Shown one piece after another: positions 1 through 10,637 of a stretch of DNA of 33,366 nucleotides. Under the pieces are notes generated by a model. The model had not been told where the DNA came from, made no database searches, and saw only the letters and a program-made list of their open reading frames with translations. Both the position numbers and the translations under genes were made by a program. Source of the DNA: Chloroflexota bacterium (GTDB lineage: Bacteria > Chloroflexota > Anaerolineae > Anaerolineales > VGOW01); the NCBI GenBank assembly GCA_016197225.1, contig JACPWC010000086.1, positions 1 to 33,366 of the forward strand, read 5' to 3'. The first letter of the stretch is position 1; each line of letters starts with the position of its first letter.

Positions 1-3000
1 AGCCTCAGCCTGAGCGCCCAACTGGATTTGAAAGCTCTGTTGAGAGCCATTGTTGACCGGGCCAGACACTTGCTGGATGCCGAAACCGGGGCCTTGTATT
101 TTTTGGACGCTGAAAGCCGGACGCTGGAGCTGGTTGTCGAGAGTGATCCTCAGCCCAGGTTTACCGGCATTCGGTTGAAGCTGGGCGAGGGCCTCTCGGG
201 CCAGGTGGCTCAAACCGGCGAGCCTTTGGTTATTGAAGACTACTCGATTTGGCCGGGCCGGACGAATGCTTTTGGCGACCCGTCTTTTCGATCCTTGCTG
301 GGCGTGCCCGTCAAGTGGCAGGGGCAGGTGATAGGCGTCATTACCGTTTCGGACAATCGAGCCTCTCGCTTTGGCCCAAGCGATCTGGAACTGGTGGGCC
401 TGTTTGCCGATCAAGCGGCAGTTGCTATTTCAAATGCCCGGCTGTTTGAAGAGTCGCAACGGCAGACGCAGGAACTGTCCGGCTTGTACAAGACGGCGCT
501 GGCGACCAGCAGTGTGCTGGAGACGGACGTGTTGTTGAGCCGGCTACACGAACAGGTTCAGCAGTTGATCAACCCGGACACGTTTGTAATTGTCTTATAT
601 GACCCGGAGGCCGAAGAACTTGAAATTGCTCTGGCCGTCGAAAACGGGGAGCGCCTGAACAAAATTAAGGTTCCCATTTCAGAGGGCGGCCCGACCGGCT
701 GGATCATTTCCAACTGCCGGCCTTTGTTAATCCACGATATGCAGACGGATGCCTTGCCGGTTCCGGCCTGGCGGGTCACTCAACCGGCGCGGTCATGGCT
801 GGGGGTTCCGCTCATTGCCCGCGATCAAACGATTGGTTCTGTGTCAGTCCAATCTTTCCAGCCTAAGGCCTTCACCGAATCGCATCGCCGCCTGCTGGAG
901 TCGCTGGCCGGGCAAATTGCCATCAGCCTTGAGAACGCGCGCCTGTTTGAAGCCACGCGGCGGCAACTGCAGGAGTTGGCGATTCTGAAAACGATTGCCA
1001 CTGCCGGAACCGAGGCGACGAGTCTCGATTCGTTGATTACTCGCGTGACCGGGCTTTTGGGCGAGACGTTTTATATTGACCACTTTGGCATTTTGTTGCT
1101 GGATGAGACGGGCCGGAATTTGCAGACGCACGATTCTTATCGCGGCCAGCAGGGCAATGTGCCGCTGAATGTTGGCATCACCGGGCGGGTGGCCGCCACC
1201 GGGCAACCGTGGCTGGTGGCCGACGTGTCACAGGAGCCGGCCTATTTTAATGCCGACGGTAACACGCGCTCTGAAGTGTGTGTGCCGTTGAAGGTTGGCG
1301 ATCAGGTGATCGGCGTCATCAATGCCGAAAGCGCCCGCCTGGATGCCTTTAGTGAACTTGATCTGCGCTTGTTGGTCACCATTTCCGAGCAGTTGGCGAC
1401 GGCCATTGAAAAGGTCAGGCTGTTTGAAGCTGAGCGCGTCGCCCGCGAGCAATCCGAGGCCTTGTCGGAGGTGGCCCGCACTCTCAACTCCAGCCTCGAC
1501 CGCGAGCAGGTTCTGCAGACGATCCTTGAGCAACTGTCGCGGGTGGTGGAATACGACAGCGCCTCGATTTTGTTGCTGGTTGAGGATGCTTTGGAAATTG
1601 CGGCGCATCGCGGGTTTCGCTCCGAAAGCCAGCTCTTTGTGCCGTTCAAAATGACGGCGGCCAAACATGTCGCCGAGGCCATTGAGAAGAAGAGCACGGT
1701 CATCATTCCCGACACCTTGCAGGACGGGCGCTGGCAACATTTCGCCGGCGCTGAATACATTCGTTGCTGGCTGGGCGTGCCGTTGCTGGTGAAAGATCGG
1801 GTGATCGGCCTGCTCAACCTGGACAAAGAAGAAACAGATTATTACACCGAGCGTCACGCCCAGTTGGCCGTTGATTTTGCCACCCAGGCGGCGGTGATCA
1901 TTGAGAATGCCCGGCTTTACGCCGAAGCCCGCGACCGCGCCGCCGAACTCGGCCAGTTGTATACGGCGGCCCAGGAGATCGGCAACAGTTTGGATCTAAA
2001 GACGGTCTTTGAGCAATTGGCCAAACACTTCACGGAGGTTCTGAGCGCGACCAGCGCTTATGTGTTAAGCGTTGACCTGGAAGCCGGCACTTTGACCGTG
2101 TTGGCCGAATATTGGGGCGCTGAAGCTTCAGAGAGTGAGCGCAAATCGGACCTCGGACAGAAATATCCTTTGCAAGATCACCGTTCCTTTGCCGGTGTCG
2201 CCGTTAATCCCCAGATCACTGCCAGACTGGCGAGCGACCCGACTCTGGCCGAGAGTGAAAGAAACCAGCTTGCGGAGTATGGCATCCAGTCATTCCTGAT
2301 CATCCCGCTCATTGTGCGCGGCCAGGTGATAGGGCTGGCTGAAGTTTGGGAGAGCCGCCGGCCACGCGCCTTCACGCCAGTCGAGCTGCGACTGGCCGAG
2401 ACGTTGAGCCAGCATGCCGCCAGTGTTATGGAAAACGCCCGCCTGCTCGAAGAAACCAGCCGCCGCGCCCACGACATGGCCCTGCTCAACGACATCACCC
2501 GCGCCACCGTCGCCACTTCCGACCTGCGTGAGTCACTGCAAGTGCTGGCTGACCGCTTAGGCGAAATATTCAACGCCGACGGTTGCTACATCACCTTGTG
2601 GGATGAAGAGCGACAAATGCCGATTCCCAGCGCCGCTTATGGCCCCCTGCGCCAGCAATACCCGGCAGTGAAGGTTGAACCGGGTGAACAGACGATGACG
2701 GCCTCTGTTTTACGCACCGGCCATGCCCTGGTCGCCGAAGATGTGTTTAACTCTCCTTACATCAGCCTGCGCATTGCCGCCATGTTCCCCGCCAAATCCA
2801 TGCTAGGCCTGCCATTGATGGCCGGCGACAATAGATTGGGAGCGGCGCTTATCTCCTTCCACCAGCCTCATCACTTCACCCCGGACGAAGTTGCTTTAGG
2901 AGAACAGGCCGCCGGCCAAATTGCTTTGGCCATCGCCAAATCCCGGCTTTTTGAAGCCACCCGCCGAAGCGCCGCCGAACTTAAGGTTGCCAGCGACATC

Positions 3001-5739
3001 CTGCGTAGCCTCAACGCCAGCCCGCAAGTGGTCAGCGTTTTCCCGGCCATCGCTTCCGAACTCAAAGCCCTGACTCAATGCGAGCGGGTCAGCCTGGCCC
3101 TCATCACCGAAGATCGCCAGAAAGTGATTATGGCCGCTCTGGACCAGCCTCGCACCGAGTTGAGTCAGGGCATCCGGTTTCCGCTCACCGCCACCTCGAC
3201 CGCGCCGGACATCCTCAAAGGCCACTTGCACCTCACCCCCGACCTGGCCGCCGAGGCGGCCTACCCGGCGGAAAAGGCCCTTTATGAAGCCGGGTTCCGT
3301 TCGCGGATCAACCTGCCTCTGCGGGTTGGCGATCAAGTGATCGGCGCCCTCAACTTCGTCTGGCCGACATTGGCCGGTTACGTTTCAGTCAACCTGTCAC
3401 TGTTGGAGCAAATTGCCGACGCGATTGCCCTGGCCATTGAGAAGAACCGATTGTTCGACGAGACCCGCCGCCGCGACGTAATCCTGGGCGCGCTTGCTTA
3501 CGCCAGTGAGCAGTTGTTGAAACCCGGCGACTTGCGCGACGAACTGCCCGCCCTGCTGGCCCGGCTGGGCCACGCCGCCGAAGTAAGCCGCGTCTACATC
3601 TTCAAAAACCACCCTGCGCCCGACGGCTCGCTACTTGCCAGTTTGCAATACGAGTGGACTGCGCCCGGGATCGCGCCACAAATTGATAACCCGCGTTTGC
3701 AAAACAGTGACTATCTGGCTCGAGGGGCCACGCGCTGGCTGCAGACGTTGATGGCCGGGCAACCCATCTTTGGTTTGACGCGCGATCTCCCGCCGGTGGA
3801 ACGGGCAACCCTGGAACCGCAGGGCATTCTTTCCATCCTCATTGTTCCCATCTTTATCGGCGAGGCCTGGTGGGGCTACCTGGGCTTCGACGAATGCACG
3901 CAGGAGCGCATTTGGCTGGGGGCCGAAGTGGAAGCCTTGAAGAGCGCGGCCGGCGCCCTGGGCGCGGCTTTTGCCCGGCAGAGGAGTGAGGCTGCTGAAC
4001 GGCGGCAACGCGAATTGACTGAAGCCCTGCGCGACACCGCCGCGGCCATGAGTAGCACCCTCAACTTCGATGAGGTGCTGGAGCGAGTGTTGGCCAACGT
4101 GGGCCGGGTAGCGCCGCACGACGCCGCCGACATCATGCTGGTCAATGCCGCCGGCACGGTGCGCGTGGCCCGTTGCCACGGCTACGCCGAGCGCGGCTTG
4201 GAAGAATGGATACTCTCGCTCGAATTCAACCTGGCCGATATGCACAACCTGAAGCACATGGCCGGGACTGGCAAACCGTACACCATTCCAGACGTTCGAA
4301 ATGATCCTGATTGGATTGACATACCGCAAAGCCGCTGGGTACGCTCCTATGCCGGCGCGCCCATCCTATTAAAAGGCAAAGTCATCGGTTTCATCAATCT
4401 CATAAGCGGCACGCCCGACTTTTTTACCCCGGCTCGGGCCGATGGCCTGAAAGCGTTTGTCGATCAGGTGGCCGTCGCCATTGATAATGCCCAGCTTTAC
4501 AATGAGGTATCGGCGCTCTACAACGCCTCGTCACAACTCATCAGCCCCGGCGGCGATTTGTCTGGCCTGGCCGAGCAGATTGCCCTCTCGGTGACGCGCG
4601 AGTTTAGTTTTGCCCATTGCGGGGTTTTGTTGATTGACGAAACCGGCCTTGAACTCAGGCGCGTGGCCCGGGCCGGCATGTTGCAGGAAATGGCCCCCTC
4701 CGTCCTGCCCTTGAGCGCCTCCACAACCCCCGCCGTGGCGGCCCGCACCGGCGAGATCGTCTACCTGCCGGATGTTACCGCCGACCCGGTTTCATTCGCC
4801 GCCAATAGCGAAACCCGCTCCGAACTGGCCATCCCTTTGAAGGTCGCCGGCAAGATCATCGGCGTGCTTGACCTGCAGAGCCGGGAGCCTGGAATTTTCG
4901 ACGATCGCACACGCCGCATTATTACCGCATTTGCCGAACATGCCGCCCTGGCGCTGGAGAACGCCCGCCTGGTGGCCAACCTGGACATGTCGCGCCAGAT
5001 GGCCGAGGACGCCAACCGCTTGAAGAGCGAGTTCCTGGCCAACACCTCGCACGAACTCCGCACGCCGCTCACCGGCATCATTGGCTCGCTGAGCATGGTG
5101 CTCGACGGACTATGCGACTCGCCGGAAGAAGAGCGTGAGTTTGCGCGCATCGCCTACACCGCCTCGGAACGTTTGTTGACGATCATTAACGACGTGCTTG
5201 ACATCGCCAAGATCGAAGCCGGGCGGATGGACGTGCGTTTGCAGGCTGTTGATCTGGACGCCCTATTCAAAGATGTTCGGTCTCTCTCTCGTGTTCAGGC
5301 TGAGGAAAAGAAGCTCACCCTGGAATTTGCATTGCCGGGGACAATGGAGTACATTTTATGGGCCGACCCGGATAAACTGCGCCAGGTCCTGCTCAATCTT
5401 ATCGGCAACGCCATCAAGTTTACCGATCATGGCGGGGTCCGGGTGGCCGCCTCGGTGGTGGATGGTGACGATGGGCACAAGCGAATACGGCTGGATGTGC
5501 AAGACACAGGCATTGGCATCCCGCTTGAAAAGCAGAGCAAGCTGTTCCAGCCCTTCGTTCAAGTGGATGGGAGTATGACGCGCCGATTCGGCGGCACCGG
5601 GCTGGGCTTGAGCATCTCACGCCGCCTCACTGAACTCATGGGCGGCGCGCTCGACTTGTCTAGTCCGGGTGAGGGTTTGGGGAGCACCTTCATGGTGACT
5701 CTGCCGGCGGTGTCACGGGCCGAGCTGGAAACTCAATGA
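1..5739 (+). CDS. Ten-GAF-domain sensor histidine kinase, 5'-truncated by the window edge
   Basis: The reading frame is open from base 1, and the residues before the first possible start (TTG at 28) already look like GAF-domain sequence, so the real start lies upstream. Counted from codon 28, ten GAF-type units follow one another. Nine end in a helix of the type ALENARLFE, near residues 136, 303, 462, 627, 803, 972, 1141, 1488 and 1646; the unit ending near 1318 has a degenerate version. A HisKA domain follows with phospho-acceptor H1675 (motif SHELRTP), then an HATPase_c domain with N-box NLIGNAIKF near 1790, DTGIGIP, and GGTGLGLS. No membrane segment or receiver domain is visible, so it is probably a cytoplasmic kinase signalling to a separate response regulator. 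GAF units bind small ligands or chromophores; I cannot tell which ones here. Confidence 0.93.
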   Translation, partial: SLSLSAQLDLKALLRAIVDRARHLLDAETGALYFLDAESRTLELVVESDPQPRFTGIRLKLGEGLSGQVAQTGEPLVIEDYSIWPGRTNAFGDPSFRSLLGVPVKWQGQVIGVITVSDNRASRFGPSDLELVGLFADQAAVAISNARLFEESQRQTQELSGLYKTALATSSVLETDVLLSRLHEQVQQLINPDTFVIVLYDPEAEELEIALAVENGERLNKIKVPISEGGPTGWIISNCRPLLIHDMQTDALPVPAWRVTQPARSWLGVPLIARDQTIGSVSVQSFQPKAFTESHRRLLESLAGQIAISLENARLFEATRRQLQELAILKTIATAGTEATSLDSLITRVTGLLGETFYIDHFGILLLDETGRNLQTHDSYRGQQGNVPLNVGITGRVAATGQPWLVADVSQEPAYFNADGNTRSEVCVPLKVGDQVIGVINAESARLDAFSELDLRLLVTISEQLATAIEKVRLFEAERVAREQSEALSEVARTLNSSLDREQVLQTILEQLSRVVEYDSASILLLVEDALEIAAHRGFRSESQLFVPFKMTAAKHVAEAIEKKSTVIIPDTLQDGRWQHFAGAEYIRCWLGVPLLVKDRVIGLLNLDKEETDYYTERHAQLAVDFATQAAVIIENARLYAEARDRAAELGQLYTAAQEIGNSLDLKTVFEQLAKHFTEVLSATSAYVLSVDLEAGTLTVLAEYWGAEASESERKSDLGQKYPLQDHRSFAGVAVNPQITARLASDPTLAESERNQLAEYGIQSFLIIPLIVRGQVIGLAEVWESRRPRAFTPVELRLAETLSQHAASVMENARLLEETSRRAHDMALLNDITRATVATSDLRESLQVLADRLGEIFNADGCYITLWDEERQMPIPSAAYGPLRQQYPAVKVEPGEQTMTASVLRTGHALVAEDVFNSPYISLRIAAMFPAKSMLGLPLMAGDNRLGAALISFHQPHHFTPDEVALGEQAAGQIALAIAKSRLFEATRRSAAELKVASDILRSLNASPQVVSVFPAIASELKALTQCERVSLALITEDRQKVIMAALDQPRTELSQGIRFPLTATSTAPDILKGHLHLTPDLAAEAAYPAEKALYEAGFRSRINLPLRVGDQVIGALNFVWPTLAGYVSVNLSLLEQIADAIALAIEKNRLFDETRRRDVILGALAYASEQLLKPGDLRDELPALLARLGHAAEVSRVYIFKNHPAPDGSLLASLQYEWTAPGIAPQIDNPRLQNSDYLARGATRWLQTLMAGQPIFGLTRDLPPVERATLEPQGILSILIVPIFIGEAWWGYLGFDECTQERIWLGAEVEALKSAAGALGAAFARQRSEAAERRQRELTEALRDTAAAMSSTLNFDEVLERVLANVGRVAPHDAADIMLVNAAGTVRVARCHGYAERGLEEWILSLEFNLADMHNLKHMAGTGKPYTIPDVRNDPDWIDIPQSRWVRSYAGAPILLKGKVIGFINLISGTPDFFTPARADGLKAFVDQVAVAIDNAQLYNEVSALYNASSQLISPGGDLSGLAEQIALSVTREFSFAHCGVLLIDETGLELRRVARAGMLQEMAPSVLPLSASTTPAVAARTGEIVYLPDVTADPVSFAANSETRSELAIPLKVAGKIIGVLDLQSREPGIFDDRTRRIITAFAEHAALALENARLVANLDMSRQMAEDANRLKSEFLANTSHELRTPLTGIIGSLSMVLDGLCDSPEEEREFARIAYTASERLLTIINDVLDIAKIEAGRMDVRLQAVDLDALFKDVRSLSRVQAEEKKLTLEFALPGTMEYILWADPDKLRQVLLNLIGNAIKFTDHGGVRVAASVVDGDDGHKRIRLDVQDTGIGIPLEKQSKLFQPFVQVDGSMTRRFGGTGLGLSISRRLTELMGGALDLSSPGEGLGSTFMVTLPAVSRAELETQ

Positions 5740-5758
5740 GAGCAATCATCAACAGGTG

Positions 5759-5793
5759 ATGACAATTGTCATGGAAGAAAAGAAGATTATTGT
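5759..5793 (+). promoter_or_regulatory. Candidate promoter with 14-bp palindrome upstream of the comX-like gene
   Basis: ATGACAATTGTCAT at 5759-5772 is a perfect 14-bp palindrome. Its right half contains TTGTCA (5766-5771), which could serve as a -35 box, followed 16 bases later by TATTGT (5788-5793) as a -10. A regulator bound to the palindrome would cover the -35 box. It is not the TTGCGG-N4-CCGCAA type of box that Bacillus ComA binds. The promoter elements are weak matches; the palindrome itself is certain. Confidence 0.35.
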
Positions 5794-5812
5794 GGTATTT
5801 TATTACAGATAA

Positions 5813-5831
5813 GGCGGATTATTTTTCCGCC
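5813..5831 (+). other. Small hairpin in the comX-like leader
   Basis: GGCGGA (5813-5818) and TCCGCC (5826-5831) form a 6-bp stem around a T-rich 7-base loop. There is no T-run after it, so it is not a convincing terminator for the upstream kinase. The rest of 5740-5900 shows nothing else beyond the candidate promoter and the ribosome binding site. Confidence 0.4.
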
Positions 5832-5887
5832 GAGCACTTATGGGCTAGCCGTTGAGGGGAATTCGGGCTAATCAAAGCCACAGGAAA

Positions 5888-5894
5888 GGAGGTG
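5888..5894 (+). promoter_or_regulatory. Near-perfect Shine-Dalgarno sequence of the comX-like gene
   Basis: AAAGGAGGTGA (core GGAGGTG, 5888-5894) is fully complementary to the usual 3' end of 16S rRNA and sits 8 bases after GGAGG before the ATG at 5901. Most genes in this window have a weak site or none. The strength of this one is the main evidence that the tiny downstream frame is translated, and at a high level. Confidence 0.85.
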
Positions 5895-5900
5895 AAAACC

Positions 5901-6068
5901 ATGGAGGAGAATATGAAGTTAGAGGAGTTCCACGCTCTGCTGAACTCGGAGTCGGGGGACAACCAACTGATCGCAGCCCTCCGCGCGCTCACGAATCAGG
6001 GGAAGCCGGAAGACGTGAGAGGAATTGACCGGACGGCGTTGGCCACTTGGCGTTGGGCAGGAGGGTAG
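5901..6068 (+). CDS. ComX-like pheromone precursor peptide (55 aa)
   Basis: A 55-codon gene, ATG at 5901 to TAG at 6066. The peptide has a charged, partly amphipathic leader (MEENMKLEEFHALLNSES at its start), no signal peptide and no Cys. It ends in TALATWRWAGG, with Trp at positions 50 and 52. Bacillus ComX precursors are about 55 aa, lack a signal peptide, and carry the Trp that ComQ prenylates three or four residues from the C-terminus; W52 is fourth from the end. The next two genes encode an isoprenyl transferase and a ComP-like kinase, and this context is the strongest argument. The inferred role is a secreted signal, cleaved from the leader and prenylated on W52 or W50. Sequence identity to known ComX is low, as expected for this fast-evolving family. 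The alternative is an unrelated RiPP-like or regulatory small peptide. Confidence 0.7.
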   Translation: MEENMKLEEFHALLNSESGDNQLIAALRALTNQGKPEDVRGIDRTALATWRWAGG

Positions 6069-6075
6069 ATATAAT
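6047..6075 (+). promoter_or_regulatory. Candidate internal promoter for the comQ-comP-like pair
   Basis: TTGGCG (6047-6052), a 17-base spacer and a perfect TATAAT (6070-6075) lie across the last codons and stop of the comX-like gene. Transcription would start near 6082, giving a leader of about 80 bases that contains the strong hairpin at 6105-6143. This would allow the transferase and kinase to be expressed separately from the precursor. Confidence 0.45.
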
Positions 6076-6104
6076 CGCCTGTTTTTGCACTAAGCCTGAA
6101 CATT

Positions 6105-6143
6105 AGTTGGCGACATACGCTTGCAAGTCGTATGTTGCCAACT
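6105..6143 (+). other. 15-bp RNA hairpin between the comX-like and comQ-like genes
   Basis: Arm 6105-6119 pairs with arm 6129-6143 over 15 positions: 14 Watson-Crick pairs plus one G-U, with a 9-base loop CTTGCAAGT. No T-run follows, so a classical intrinsic terminator is unlikely. The hairpin lies between the precursor stop and the transferase start (20 bases upstream of ATG 6164). It could stabilise or end a short precursor transcript, or control translation of the downstream gene. Confidence 0.8.
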
Positions 6144-6163
6144 GCCATCTATAGCCAAATCAA

Positions 6164-7117
6164 ATGCACACTCAAAGCATTCGTTCATACATGTCAGCTT
6201 TGCCTCGAATTGTAGAGTGGCCGGAATTGGCTGTTTTGTTTAATGAGGCTACCGAGACTCCTCGCGTTGATTGGAATTTGCCAATCATGGCCTGTCAGGC
6301 CGTTGGCGGAGATCCATTGGTTGCGCTCCCCGGTTGCGCCGCCATTGCCTTCATGCAATTAAGCATCATACTGGTAGATGATATTCTTGACGCCGATCCT
6401 CGGGGGCATCATCATCAGATCGGAGTTGGCCCGGCGGCTAACATGGCGCTTGCCTATCAAGCCCTTCCATTTCAAATAGTGGAACAGGATGTAAAAGACC
6501 CTGAGCGCCGCTCTGCGGTTGCGGCTAACCTGGCTTCGATGGCCCTGGCAACGGCTTTTGGGCAACAATTAGACGTGCAAAATCAGGGAGGCGAGGAAAA
6601 TTACTGGCGGTTAGTGCGGGCGAAGAGCACTCCTTTTTATGCCTCGGCGTTGTACATCGGCGCTGTGCTAGGCGGGGCAGACTCCAAAACAGCATATACC
6701 CTTCGTGATTTTGGCGCGATCATGGGCGAAATTGTCCAGATTCAAGATGATCTGTTTGATGCTTTTCAAACCCCGGCCAACCCCGACTGGAAACAGGGCC
6801 GCAACAACTTGCCTATCTTGTATGCCCTCACTGCTGATCATCCCGCCCGTGACCGCTTTTTAGAATTGCGATTAAGAGCGGACGATCCTGACGTTTTGCA
6901 TGAAGCGCAGAAAATTCTTATCGCCTGTGGCGCTGTTAGTTACTGCATTTATCACCTCGTCAAACGCCGCCGGCAAGCCAAGCATTTGCTTGATAATCTA
7001 TCCCTTCCCGACCCCAAACCTTTAACAGACCTCCTGACCCTCGAAATGGAGTCGCTGATCCAATTGTTGAAAATCAGTGGTGTAGACATCCCTCCCGACT
7101 TAATGTCAGAAGCCTGA
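6164..7117 (+). CDS. ComQ-like isoprenyl transferase (polyprenyl synthetase fold)
   Basis: A 317-aa all-helical trans-isoprenyl diphosphate synthase family protein. The first Asp-rich motif is DDILDAD (D72, D73, D76), the second QDDLFD (D195, D196, D199). Between them are GQQLDV (about 133-138) and RAKSTPF (K154), and the GKxxLP-type segment is KQGRNNLPILYAL (from K210). The Lys/Arg-rich GGKRxRP motif of standard chain-elongating synthases is missing near residue 45, as in ComQ proteins. Both metal-binding motifs are intact, so it should be active, transferring a prenyl group to a Trp of the upstream peptide (inferred). It starts without a clear Shine-Dalgarno and ends 4 bases before the kinase gene. 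An ATG at 6191 is a possible alternative start. The gene is visibly AT-richer than the window average. An ordinary polyprenyl diphosphate synthase is the alternative, but its placement argues against that. Confidence 0.82.
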   Translation: MHTQSIRSYMSALPRIVEWPELAVLFNEATETPRVDWNLPIMACQAVGGDPLVALPGCAAIAFMQLSIILVDDILDADPRGHHHQIGVGPAANMALAYQALPFQIVEQDVKDPERRSAVAANLASMALATAFGQQLDVQNQGGEENYWRLVRAKSTPFYASALYIGAVLGGADSKTAYTLRDFGAIMGEIVQIQDDLFDAFQTPANPDWKQGRNNLPILYALTADHPARDRFLELRLRADDPDVLHEAQKILIACGAVSYCIYHLVKRRRQAKHLLDNLSLPDPKPLTDLLTLEMESLIQLLKISGVDIPPDLMSEA

Positions 7118-7121
7118 GGCA

Positions 7122-10100
7122 ATGACTAACTTGCTCCGCCGCCTGCGCCAGTTAGAATGGTTCCCAACCACCCTCTCAATTTCAGTCTTGCTGATTTGTT
7201 TCTTTTATGCTTATGCAGGCGCTTTTGAGACCCCTTCTCCTGGCTTTGTTTACGACACGTTTTGGAATATCACCTCGGTTGATGTTTGTGATCCGGGAAA
7301 TGAGTGGTGCGCGGCTAATCAGGGTCAAATTCAAGTTGGCGACCGGTTGACTATCATTGGCAACCTGACTTATGACTCCTACCGGACAAAATTTTGGCTG
7401 ACCCCTTTTGCCGGATATGCTCCCGGCCAGGTTGTGCCTATAACACTGTCTCGCGATACTCGTGAATACCCGGTAAACTGGCAACTCCCTCCTCATAACT
7501 TTCAAGCTGAGATCATTACTTTACTTGGCGGCCTGGTTCTTCTCCTGCCCTTTTGGGTGGCAGGAACCATCGCCTTATTACTTTTACGGCCCCACGACAC
7601 CCGTTGGCGGTTGCTCATTGCTTTCAATTATCTTACGGCAGTCTGGTTGATGGCCGGCATCAACTCGGCTTCGCAAATTGCGCTTTCGGTGCCGGTTTTG
7701 CGGGTGATTAGCTGGTTGATGGCCCCGGTCTATCTTCACCTGCACCTGTTATTGCCAGTGCCAATATTCCAACGCCCTCATCGTTATGGCTTGCCCTTTT
7801 TTTACATTGCCGCCATCAGCCTCGGGGCGTTTAGCCTGTTTCAGCCCGCCTCCTCAGGTAGCTATCTGACAGGCTTATTACTAGCGCTCTTCGCCAGCTT
7901 TTTCCTGCTGGTAGCGCGATTATTCACTCCTTCTTCCGCAGGGCGGTTGGCGACCCGCCTCATGCTGGCAGGTATCGGCTTGGCATTTGGGCCAACCATC
8001 CTGTTATGGGTGATCCCTCAACTCTTGGGAATAAAGCCGGGGGATTTAGTGTCAGGTGTTGCCGCTTTTTCGATTCCTATCTTGCCCCTCTTCTACGTTT
8101 ACGCCATTTACAAACGCCACCTGGGCGGGCTGGAGTTTCGGGCCAATAACCTGATCGCCCGCTACAGCTTTGTTCTGTTGTACATCACCGCCTTCGCCAT
8201 CGTCTATTTGTGGGGTGCCACCCTGGTTCCGCCCGACCAGCTTATTACCTTTAGCCTTGTGTTATCGGCCAGCTTTGCCGTGGCGGCCTCCGGCCTCTAT
8301 CGCCGTTATCAACGCCTGGTGAACCGGCTGGCTTATGGCACAGGCTACGTTTCTGCCGACATCGTCAACCTTTTCATCAACCGCATCCCGACCGCCTCCG
8401 ATCAGGCCGCGCTGGTGTCCTTACTGGCCGACGAGATCGTTCCCAGTTTGTTGGTTCGTCAATCGGCGCTCTACCTTTTGCCGGGCGAGGCCGAAACCGG
8501 GGACGGGGCCTTGCTCTACAATCGCGGAGTTGATCTGCCGATCACCGTGCCGCCAGGCCAACTCCGGCAATTGCTCCTCCGCGCCAGCCAATATCAGCCG
8601 CCGCCGACCGAGTTGGAGATGGAGGAAGAATGGAACTGGGCGCGTCTGGTCATCTCCCTTGAAACACAGAACAAGGTTGTGGGCGCCTGGCTGTTTGGGC
8701 GGCGCGACCCTGACGATTTTTACCCGCGACCGGACATTACTCTGCTCAACACGCTGGCCCACCAGGCGGCTCTGGCAATTGAAAACTCGCGGCTTTACCA
8801 GGCGGTGCAAAAGGAGTTGAACGAACGCAAGCGGGCTGAAGAGATTCTCCGCCAGCAAAACGAGTATCTGGCCGCCTTGTACGATACCATGCTGGGATTG
8901 TTGAACCGGCTGGACATGTCCGATTTGCTGGAGGCGATTCTGACGCGGGCGGCGCAGCTGGTGAACACCCGGAACGGTTTTATTTATCTGGTCGGGCCAG
9001 ATGGCTCAGAAATAGAGGCCAAATTCGCTGTCGGCGCCCACGAAGCGCATATTGGTAATCGTTTAAAACCGGGCGACGGGGTGGCGGGAAAAGTCTGGGA
9101 AACAGGCCAACCCTTGATTCTGGATGATTACGCGGTCTGGCCCGAGCGCCTGGAGATGGCTACCTCGCGCGGCCTTCACGCCATCGCCGGTTTCCCGCTC
9201 AAGTCTGGCTTGCAAGTTGTGGGCATTCTTGGGGTGTCGCACACGGACCCTGTCCGCCGCTTCTCCCGGAACGAGATTGAACTTCTGGAGCGATTTGCCC
9301 AATTGGCCTCCATTGCGCTCGATAACGCCCGGCTCTTCACCTCGGCCCAGCAGGAACTGGCCGAACGCAAGCGGGCCGAGACAGCTCTGGCCGGGCTGAA
9401 CCTTGAACTGGAGCAGGCGCTGGTGGCCGCTAACGAGTTGTCCGTGTCGGCTCAGGCGGCCAGCCGGGCCAAGAGTGAGTTCCTGGCCACCATGAGCCAC
9501 GAGTTTCGCACGCCCTTGAATGCCGTGCTGGGCTACAGCGAGTTGATGCTGGGCACTGACCTGACGGACGAACAGCGCGCCTATTTGCGCGAAGTGATGG
9601 TTGCCGGCGAAAACCTGCTCAAGCTGTTCAGCGACGTGCTTGATTTCTCGCGGATCGAGTCGGGACGGCTGGAGTTGAAGCATGTTCCTTTCAACCTGGT
9701 GGATACGGTTGAGCAAGCCATGCAAAACATTGCCTCGTACGCCGCCTCTAAAAACCTGAAGCGCTCGCTCCACATTGATTCTGATGTTCCAGCTGAGTTG
9801 ATCGGCGACCCGGCCCGCCTGGAGCAGGTGTTGCTCATTCTGCTGAACAACGCCGTCAAGTTTACGGCTGAGGGCGAAGTGGATTTGAAGCTGAAGTGCA
9901 TTGATCGTTCGCCGGAAAAAGCCACTCTGTATTTTGCCGTGCGCGACACGGGCATTGGCATTCCACCGGAAAAACAGGAATTGATCTTTGGAGTATTTAC
10001 CCAGGCCGACGGCTCGGTGACGCGCCAGTATGGCGGGGTGGGCCTGGGGCTGAACATTGCCCGGCGGCTGGTGGAAAAATTTGGCGGACGCCTGTGGGTG

Positions 10101-10637
10101 GAGAGTGAACCGGGCGACGGGAGCATTTTCCATTTCCTTACCACCTTTGAGGTCGCGCCTCAAACAGAGGCGGCTGAACCGGCAATCGGCGCTGAAGACA
10201 TCGGGCTGTCAACAACTGCCGGGGAGACTCTGTCAATTCTGGTGGCCGAGGACAATCCGGTTAACCTGGACGTGATCGTGAGGATTTTGGAGAAACGCGG
10301 CTGGGCGGTGACGGCAGTTGATAACGGCCAGGCGGCGGTTGAGCGTTCGGCCCGGGAAGACTTCGACTTAATTTTGATGGATGTGCAGATGCCAATCCTG
10401 GACGGGTATACGGCCACCCTTTCCATCCGCGCTCGCGAGCAGGTAACGGGCCGGCACATGCCGATCGTTGGGGTGACGGCCTATGCCATGCAGGGCGACC
10501 GTGAGCGATGTTTGAAGGCCGGGATGGACGGTTACCTGGCCAAGCCGATGAAGGCCAACGAGCTATACGAGATCGTCGAAACGGTCGTCAAGCAGTTCAA
10601 GCGCGGCCGGGGTGTGGCGACGACGGAACCGGCCTGA
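7122..10637 (+). CDS. ComP-like membrane hybrid histidine kinase with PDZ-like sensor loop
   Basis: A 1171-aa protein. A first membrane helix (about 17-35) is followed by an extracytoplasmic loop (36-130) resembling a PDZ fold, with VGDRLTIIGNL near 72-82 and GQVVPITLSRD near 102-112. Then come about eight more membrane helices (132-156, 162-184, 190-212, 223-241, 249-267, 277-298, 309-330, 347-392 region). This N-terminal plan matches Bacillus ComP. The cytoplasmic part holds a GAF-like domain (about 410-560), a coiled coil, a second GAF (about 595-735), HisKA with H793 (SHEFRTP), HATPase_c with NNAVKFT and GGVGLGLN, and a receiver domain with D1087 (LILMDVQMP). Inferred role: receptor for the modified peptide. 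Unlike ComP it is a hybrid kinase and no DNA-binding partner lies nearby. The membrane part is AT-richer than the kinase part. Confidence 0.85.
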   Translation: MTNLLRRLRQLEWFPTTLSISVLLICFFYAYAGAFETPSPGFVYDTFWNITSVDVCDPGNEWCAANQGQIQVGDRLTIIGNLTYDSYRTKFWLTPFAGYAPGQVVPITLSRDTREYPVNWQLPPHNFQAEIITLLGGLVLLLPFWVAGTIALLLLRPHDTRWRLLIAFNYLTAVWLMAGINSASQIALSVPVLRVISWLMAPVYLHLHLLLPVPIFQRPHRYGLPFFYIAAISLGAFSLFQPASSGSYLTGLLLALFASFFLLVARLFTPSSAGRLATRLMLAGIGLAFGPTILLWVIPQLLGIKPGDLVSGVAAFSIPILPLFYVYAIYKRHLGGLEFRANNLIARYSFVLLYITAFAIVYLWGATLVPPDQLITFSLVLSASFAVAASGLYRRYQRLVNRLAYGTGYVSADIVNLFINRIPTASDQAALVSLLADEIVPSLLVRQSALYLLPGEAETGDGALLYNRGVDLPITVPPGQLRQLLLRASQYQPPPTELEMEEEWNWARLVISLETQNKVVGAWLFGRRDPDDFYPRPDITLLNTLAHQAALAIENSRLYQAVQKELNERKRAEEILRQQNEYLAALYDTMLGLLNRLDMSDLLEAILTRAAQLVNTRNGFIYLVGPDGSEIEAKFAVGAHEAHIGNRLKPGDGVAGKVWETGQPLILDDYAVWPERLEMATSRGLHAIAGFPLKSGLQVVGILGVSHTDPVRRFSRNEIELLERFAQLASIALDNARLFTSAQQELAERKRAETALAGLNLELEQALVAANELSVSAQAASRAKSEFLATMSHEFRTPLNAVLGYSELMLGTDLTDEQRAYLREVMVAGENLLKLFSDVLDFSRIESGRLELKHVPFNLVDTVEQAMQNIASYAASKNLKRSLHIDSDVPAELIGDPARLEQVLLILLNNAVKFTAEGEVDLKLKCIDRSPEKATLYFAVRDTGIGIPPEKQELIFGVFTQADGSVTRQYGGVGLGLNIARRLVEKFGGRLWVESEPGDGSIFHFLTTFEVAPQTEAAEPAIGAEDIGLSTTAGETLSILVAEDNPVNLDVIVRILEKRGWAVTAVDNGQAAVERSAREDFDLILMDVQMPILDGYTATLSIRAREQVTGRHMPIVGVTAYAMQGDRERCLKAGMDGYLAKPMKANELYEIVETVVKQFKRGRGVATTEPA

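Follow-up and report, generated by a model that had tools for sequence, protein, structure and literature searches.

Here we describe three adjacent genes in a contig of a Chloroflexota bacterium of the order Anaerolineales (GenBank JACPWC010000086.1), of which the whole stretch of 33,366 nucleotides was analysed and is called the window below. In the order X-Q-P, they are read as a gene for a short precursor peptide (X, 5901..6068), a gene for a predicted prenyltransferase (Q, 6164..7117) and a gene for a hybrid histidine kinase that we propose as a receptor (P, 7122..10637). All three lie on the forward strand, and P starts four bases past the stop codon of Q. An earlier note on this DNA, made from the sequence alone, had suggested a distant version of the ComX-ComQ-ComP pheromone system. 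Our analyses indicate that the trio is quite probably a self-contained prenyl-peptide signalling cassette.

The product of X is a 55-amino-acid (aa) precursor, MEENMKLEEF...ALATWRWAGG, whose open reading frame (ORF) is preceded by a near-perfect Shine-Dalgarno sequence, AAAGGAGGTG, read directly at 5885..5894 of the forward strand. The tail TWRWAGG and the ideal ribosome binding site that the earlier note had described are both present as stated. Our first search with the transferase, in 61 relatives, found eleven clear orthologues, and short ORFs with a Trp-rich tail were found just upstream of the orthologues when the flanks were read by eye. A scan of named genomes gave 65 loci, of which 54 are counted as true relatives and the other eleven are archaeal polyprenyl-synthase loci. 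The related loci are nearly all from Chloroflexota (Anaerolineae, Caldilineae and Ardenticatenaceae), with three labelled Acidobacteriota. A profile of the collected X peptides identifies a homologue directly upstream of Q in 48 of the 54, and it has no match in the eleven archaeal loci or in same-genus loci without the trio; since the profile was built from these same peptides, the absences are the informative part. Six related loci are without X: three are at contig edges (L102, L119 and L143), two have a decayed Q (L145 and L157) and the last is L142. In the decayed copies (L145 7640-7850, and L157) the N-terminus of Q is disrupted and X has lost its frame; a WDDW remnant can be made out in L145.

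The first Trp of the tail is invariant in all 50 aligned X peptides, amid variable residues. Its counterpart in the window is Trp50 (codon 6048..6050, +), which is invariant in A5 and is the most likely site of a predicted prenylation. A second Trp follows as W-x-x-W in 44 of the 50 peptides and four have a single Trp; the window X reads W-x-W, where the alignment makes Trp52 (codon 6054..6056, +) the counterpart of the usual second Trp. The ratio of nonsynonymous to synonymous substitution rates (dN/dS) of X is 0.06-0.46 in eight pairs, as expected under purifying selection. Homologues at the same position in dozens of genomes, together with this selection, argue that the X reading frame is not a chance one.

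The linkage between X and Q was tested independently in 301 genomes of the order, using an X profile and a Q profile (E at most 1e-30 for Q). The X profile matches 34 of these genomes and the Q profile 41, with 32 matched by both (Fisher p 1.3e-32, which is only a guide as related genomes are not independent). All 32 co-occurring X genes lie on the same strand as Q, 66-406 bp upstream. For the two X matches without Q, the contig ends 126 and 56 bases away, and Q would lie beyond it. Four complete Q genes missed by the X profile (in G456, G457, G463 and G512) have an X that was found by eye, and the remaining five of the 41 Q genomes carry distant Q types or fragments. The X-Q linkage is strict, and the cassette recurs in dozens of Chloroflexota genomes. 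In related genomes, where the earlier note had proposed to look for the same genes, the transferase is indeed accompanied by a small gene with a Trp-bearing tail.

The 317-aa Q protein matches PF00348 (polyprenyl_synt) with an E-value of 3e-20, and its structure model (pLDDT 93.7) has the isoprenoid-synthase fold of the trans-isoprenyl diphosphate synthases (trans-IDS). The nearest PDB entry is 1wy0 (Z 31.8). Ordinary synthases rank first in the structure search, which informs on the fold only, and peptide or indole prenyltransferases are not named among the ranked entries, an absence that excludes nothing. Both Asp-rich motifs are in place: DDILD (aa 72-76, 6377..6391) and DDLFD (aa 195-199, 6746..6760), in which DD.LD and DD..D, respectively, are invariant in 43 orthologues. 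In the family rows shown of the alignment, the GGKRxRP motif, the RRGxPT stretch after the first Asp-rich motif and the TGK loop after the second are missing. All three are present, with variants, in canonical Chloroflexota synthases and are absent also from two real ComQ. In farnesyl diphosphate synthases, the residues of GGKRxRP and RRGxPT hold isopentenyl diphosphate (IPP) and diphosphate. With the IPP- and diphosphate-binding motifs lost, chain elongation by Q is unlikely. A quick tree puts all 32 canonical rows together on one side of a branch (support 99), apart from the window family, ComQ and the Pal-like enzymes. The earlier note's description of the enzyme, with both Asp-rich motifs and no GGKRxRP, is confirmed, and Q does not group with the chain-elongating synthases. 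Both this placement and the Trp-tailed gene kept in relatives speak for the idea of the earlier note.

Known Trp prenyltransferases of this superfamily are ComQ, PalQ and ChrP (PMC13290415), and ComQ and PalQ are Trp-prenylating members of the fold of Q (PMC5331326, PMC10853753, PMC13290415). Q might instead supply P with a small isoprenoid to sense (a terpene or an allylic diphosphate), with X an unrelated small regulator or chaperone of Q. The isoprenoid-synthase fold and both Asp-rich motifs are as this would have it, and the X leader could bind Q. However, the IPP-site motifs are gone, an invariant Trp amid a variable tail is needless for a mere chaperone, and ComQ and PalQ, with the same fold, prenylate Trp tails beside kinases. 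We consider this alternative highly improbable. A Gln at -1 or -3 of the second Asp-rich motif was considered as a mark of Trp specificity and rejected, as canonical synthases carry Gln there too. The transferase was also sought on plasmids and phages, with weak partial matches only. An isoprenoid-synthase-like enzyme without GGKRxRP lies at 3923-4870 of the Acaryochloris marina plasmid pREC3 (L063), beside a DUF4157 gene.

P is a hybrid histidine kinase of 1171 aa. Its sensor module (aa 1-420, 7122..8381) was modelled with AlphaFold2 at a pLDDT of 91 and has about ten membrane helices, with a PDZ-like loop between helix 1 and helix 2 (aa 38-124, 7233..7493). This agrees with the earlier note, which had placed the kinase four bases on with a PDZ-like outer loop and about nine helices. 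The loop matches the PDZ domain of Deg9 (VIA-align Z 9.2, rmsd 2.6 over 79 residues). A profile of the sensor aligns with Anoxybacillus ComP over about 340 columns (hhalign prob 94, E 1.2e-7), and none of the controls for this match, made up of five unrelated proteins and eight local shuffles, exceeds 0.8. Judged by this profile comparison, the P sensor is homologous to the ComP sensor. ComP of B. amyloliquefaciens has the same topology, with a PDZ loop after the first helix (PMC9620489). Matches between the membrane part of P and G-protein-coupled (seven-helix) receptors, with Z about 10, are taken as common helix packing. The output half carries, by Pfam, GAF (aa 597-734), HisKA (783-848), HATPase (895-1005) and receiver (1039-1152) domains, spanning 8910..10577. 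The hybrid kinase receptor, the X-Q-P order and the two candidate Trp residues of the earlier note can thus all be read in the window.

A sensor-bearing protein adjoins Q in 51 of the 54 related loci, in the same direction as Q in 17 (the window type) and divergently in 34. A homologue of a NarL-type regulator was found in 26 of the 36 loci examined, with REC-GerE domains read at L047. Alternatively, X may give rise to a prenylated antimicrobial or another secreted lipopeptide, a ribosomally synthesized and post-translationally modified peptide (RiPP), which P senses for auto-induction or self-protection only; the cassette would then serve biosynthesis with feedback, not communication between cells. 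The same genes would be expected, and the published account of PalPXQ treats it as a RiPP cluster with a kinase gene (PMC10853753). That said, the trio has no recurrent immunity gene or protease beside it, and an ABC-exporter-like gene, variable in position, is present in just 6 of 36 loci. The sensor is homologous to ComP, a pheromone receptor, and feeds into a variety of regulatory outputs, which fits a signal. We therefore regard the RiPP explanation as unlikely.

For the signalling cassette that we favour, we infer prenylation itself, its site, processing, export, ligand binding and density sensing along the following lines. X would be translated, and Q, a trans-IDS-like enzyme that appears to have lost its IPP site, would use an allylic diphosphate (geranyl, farnesyl or geranylgeranyl diphosphate; GPP, FPP or GGPP) on Trp50, the invariant residue of the X tail, and perhaps on Trp52 as well. 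The leader would be cut off and a short lipidated peptide released by host functions encoded outside the cassette. Outside the cell, this peptide would bind the PDZ loop and the membrane helices of P and switch the fused output, in the window a GAF-HisKA-HATPase-receiver hybrid kinase. The cassette is modular, the same sensor being joined in relatives to HisKA or HisKA_3 kinases, hybrid kinases or HD-GYP, or accompanied by a NarL-type response regulator.

Several results weigh against this interpretation. X has no similarity to ComX: there is no match of X to any Pfam family, the ComX model PF05952 is silent at E up to 1, and hhalign of 50 X peptides against three ComX gives a prob of 0.2. The PF05952 model is weak: with a cut-off of 25, it gives even B. 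velezensis ComX a score of 24.6 bits. Q keeps the DDxxD of its second motif, and in the quick tree the window family and ComQ are not sisters, in a comparison with long branches and only two ComQ. L142, on a 1.2-Mb contig from Thermoanaerobaculia, outside Chloroflexota, has Q and a hybrid P with no recognisable X nearby. The sensor matches 91 genomes, compared with 41 for Q, and thus also occurs without Q, as solo receptors; being often without Q or X, it need not always read this ligand. Finally, most loci share no dedicated protease or exporter. In relatives, the ComX Pfam model returned sub-threshold noise, as it did in E. coli and other controls, none of which rose above the cut-off, and it is uninformative there.

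The same results bear on whether the trio is a true Bacillus-type ComQXP, horizontally transferred and diverged, with the same mechanism by direct descent. The homology of the sensor with ComP, the similar size of X and a transferase of the same superfamily are consistent with this. However, X lacks detectable ComX similarity, Q does not come out as sister to ComQ in the quick tree and has its second Asp-rich motif (SARM) intact, the order is X-Q-P instead of Q-X-P-A, and the window family is deeply diversified inside Chloroflexota. Direct descent strikes us as quite improbable. What stands of the distant version of ComX-ComQ-ComP proposed earlier is a likeness in function and the homology of the sensor to ComP, found by the profile comparison with known families that had been suggested as a check; the peptide shows no such match, and Q is no demonstrable descendant of ComQ.

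Some further loci with parts of the system were noted. The genome of the window itself has a second ComP-like kinase (L058, contig C104, 4602-6842, -) with a GerE-type regulator (3025-3699, +) and no X or Q nearby; this kinase is possibly a solo receptor. Sensor matches are also found at other loci of the same-genus genomes G002, G003 and G004. A 400-aa helix-turn-helix-like protein lies beyond the receptor in 13 of the loci, e.g. L126 (4013-5215, -). L128 (9644-10441, -; 10514-16942, +) has X-Q without a receptor, with the regulator kept, directly beside a large polyketide-synthase-like gene, which is possibly the regulated product.

The receptor outputs vary among relatives. Those of the window type carry the sensor in fusion with HisKA_3 (L095), with HisKA with or without GAF (L096, L098, L101, L104, L106, L107 and L109), with PAS-HisKA (L143) or with HD-GYP (L097, L099, L139 and L045), and it is built into hybrid kinases in the window, L119 and L142. 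L097, which shares its contig with L043, also has a small ORF of 72 aa (5733-5951) upstream of X-Q-P, beside a MalT-like regulator; this ORF has a Trp close to its end and resembles a further peptide precursor.

The surroundings of the trio provide clues to its history. Upstream, at 28-5739 of the window, lies a gene for a 1903-aa kinase with about ten GAF domains, and a GAF kinase at this place is conserved in the genus. Downstream of P is a gene without regulator features, read as a methionine aminopeptidase (the naming is that of the earlier note). In G003, of the same genus, the orthologue of this downstream gene comes immediately after the upstream GAF kinase. In G002, also of the same genus, a 790-aa hybrid kinase occupies the gap; it shares about 50% identity with the part of the window P that follows about residue 575 and has no sensor, and there is no X or Q at this locus. 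Third-position GC content is 52% in Q, 60% in the sensor part of P and 72% in the output half of P and the neighbouring genes. As same-genus genomes are without the cassette at this locus, X, Q and the sensor seem to have joined a resident kinase in the window. The alternative is that the cassette was lost in the same-genus relatives, instead of gained in the window.

A census of comQXPA in 2014 found none outside Firmicutes (PMC4008528), and a survey in 2022 reported only a kinase-regulator pair in Chloroflexi (PMC8895600). We found no Chloroflexota peptide signal of this kind in the open-access literature. It is possible, though we stop short of calling it likely, that these loci represent a Chloroflexota pheromone family prenylated on W-x-x-W, perhaps on both Trp residues, with a peptide and enzyme lineage independent of ComX and with one ComP-type receptor module that has moved among outputs, among them HD-GYP for the hydrolysis of cyclic di-GMP and, in the window, a hybrid kinase that was already there. 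If so, signalling by lipid-tailed peptides reaches much further than has been assumed, the Anaerolineales possess a directly testable pheromone language, and dozens of new Trp prenyltransferase candidates become available along with their natural substrates. The variable outputs would illustrate how a sensing module can be rewired, and the window locus seems to catch one such rewiring.

Compared with the canonical polyprenyl diphosphate synthases (PF00348), Q shares the fold and both Asp-rich motifs but belongs to a separate clade without GGKRxRP, RRGxPT and the TGK loop. In ComQXPA, the ComX-type precursors have about 52-73 aa and a Trp near the C-terminus (PMC4008528); X falls within this range at 55 aa, with Trp50 and Trp52 near its C-terminus. 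Like ComQ, Q has the first Asp-rich motif and is without GGKRxRP and RRGxPT. P is a polytopic kinase as ComP is, its PDZ loop likewise lies between helices 1 and 2, and it appears homologous over the whole sensor module, and the divergent-receptor relatives carry a NarL-type regulator, as ComA is. However, X is unrelated to ComX by sequence, and the family usually has two Trp residues (W-x-x-W; W-x-W in the window). The second motif of Q is DDLFD, while in ComQ a DDxxD in the SARM is said to be unsuitable and the pseudo-SARM is NDxxx or GDxxx (PMC5331326). The gene order is X-Q-P in the window and Q-X-P-A in ComQXPA. The window P has HisKA, HATPase and receiver domains and not HisKA_3, with no adjacent NarL-type regulator (ComA), and receptor outputs vary in the window family, HD-GYP included. 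As several defining features fail, membership in ComQXPA is not established, and the sequences are better described as a putative separate lineage. It is nonetheless likely that X-Q-P works like ComX-ComQ-ComP, and like PalX-PalQ-PalP of Paenibacillus.

The Pal system of Paenibacillus alvei likewise brings together a kinase, a precursor and a Trp-prenyltransferase (here a predicted one), the prenylation by PalQ having been shown in vitro (PMC10853753), and PalQ keeps the Asp of the second motif, as Q does. PalX differs in having an NHLP leader and Trp as its last residue; the window X has another, short leader, and Trp50 is sixth from the end. A second Chloroflexota type (L055, L056, L201 and L203-L207, with L202 and L210 also listed) combines a Q-like enzyme with the same sensor. 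Its precursor has an NHLP-like leader, MTLAQVVYQLS..., and one Trp near the end, and occurs as two tandem copies in L056 (locus L016). The Pal-like enzyme of L056 matches the Q family profile with a prob of 99 and E 2e-20, canonical enzymes not being scored alike. In its plan, this second type is closer to the Paenibacillus PalXQP than the window cassette is.

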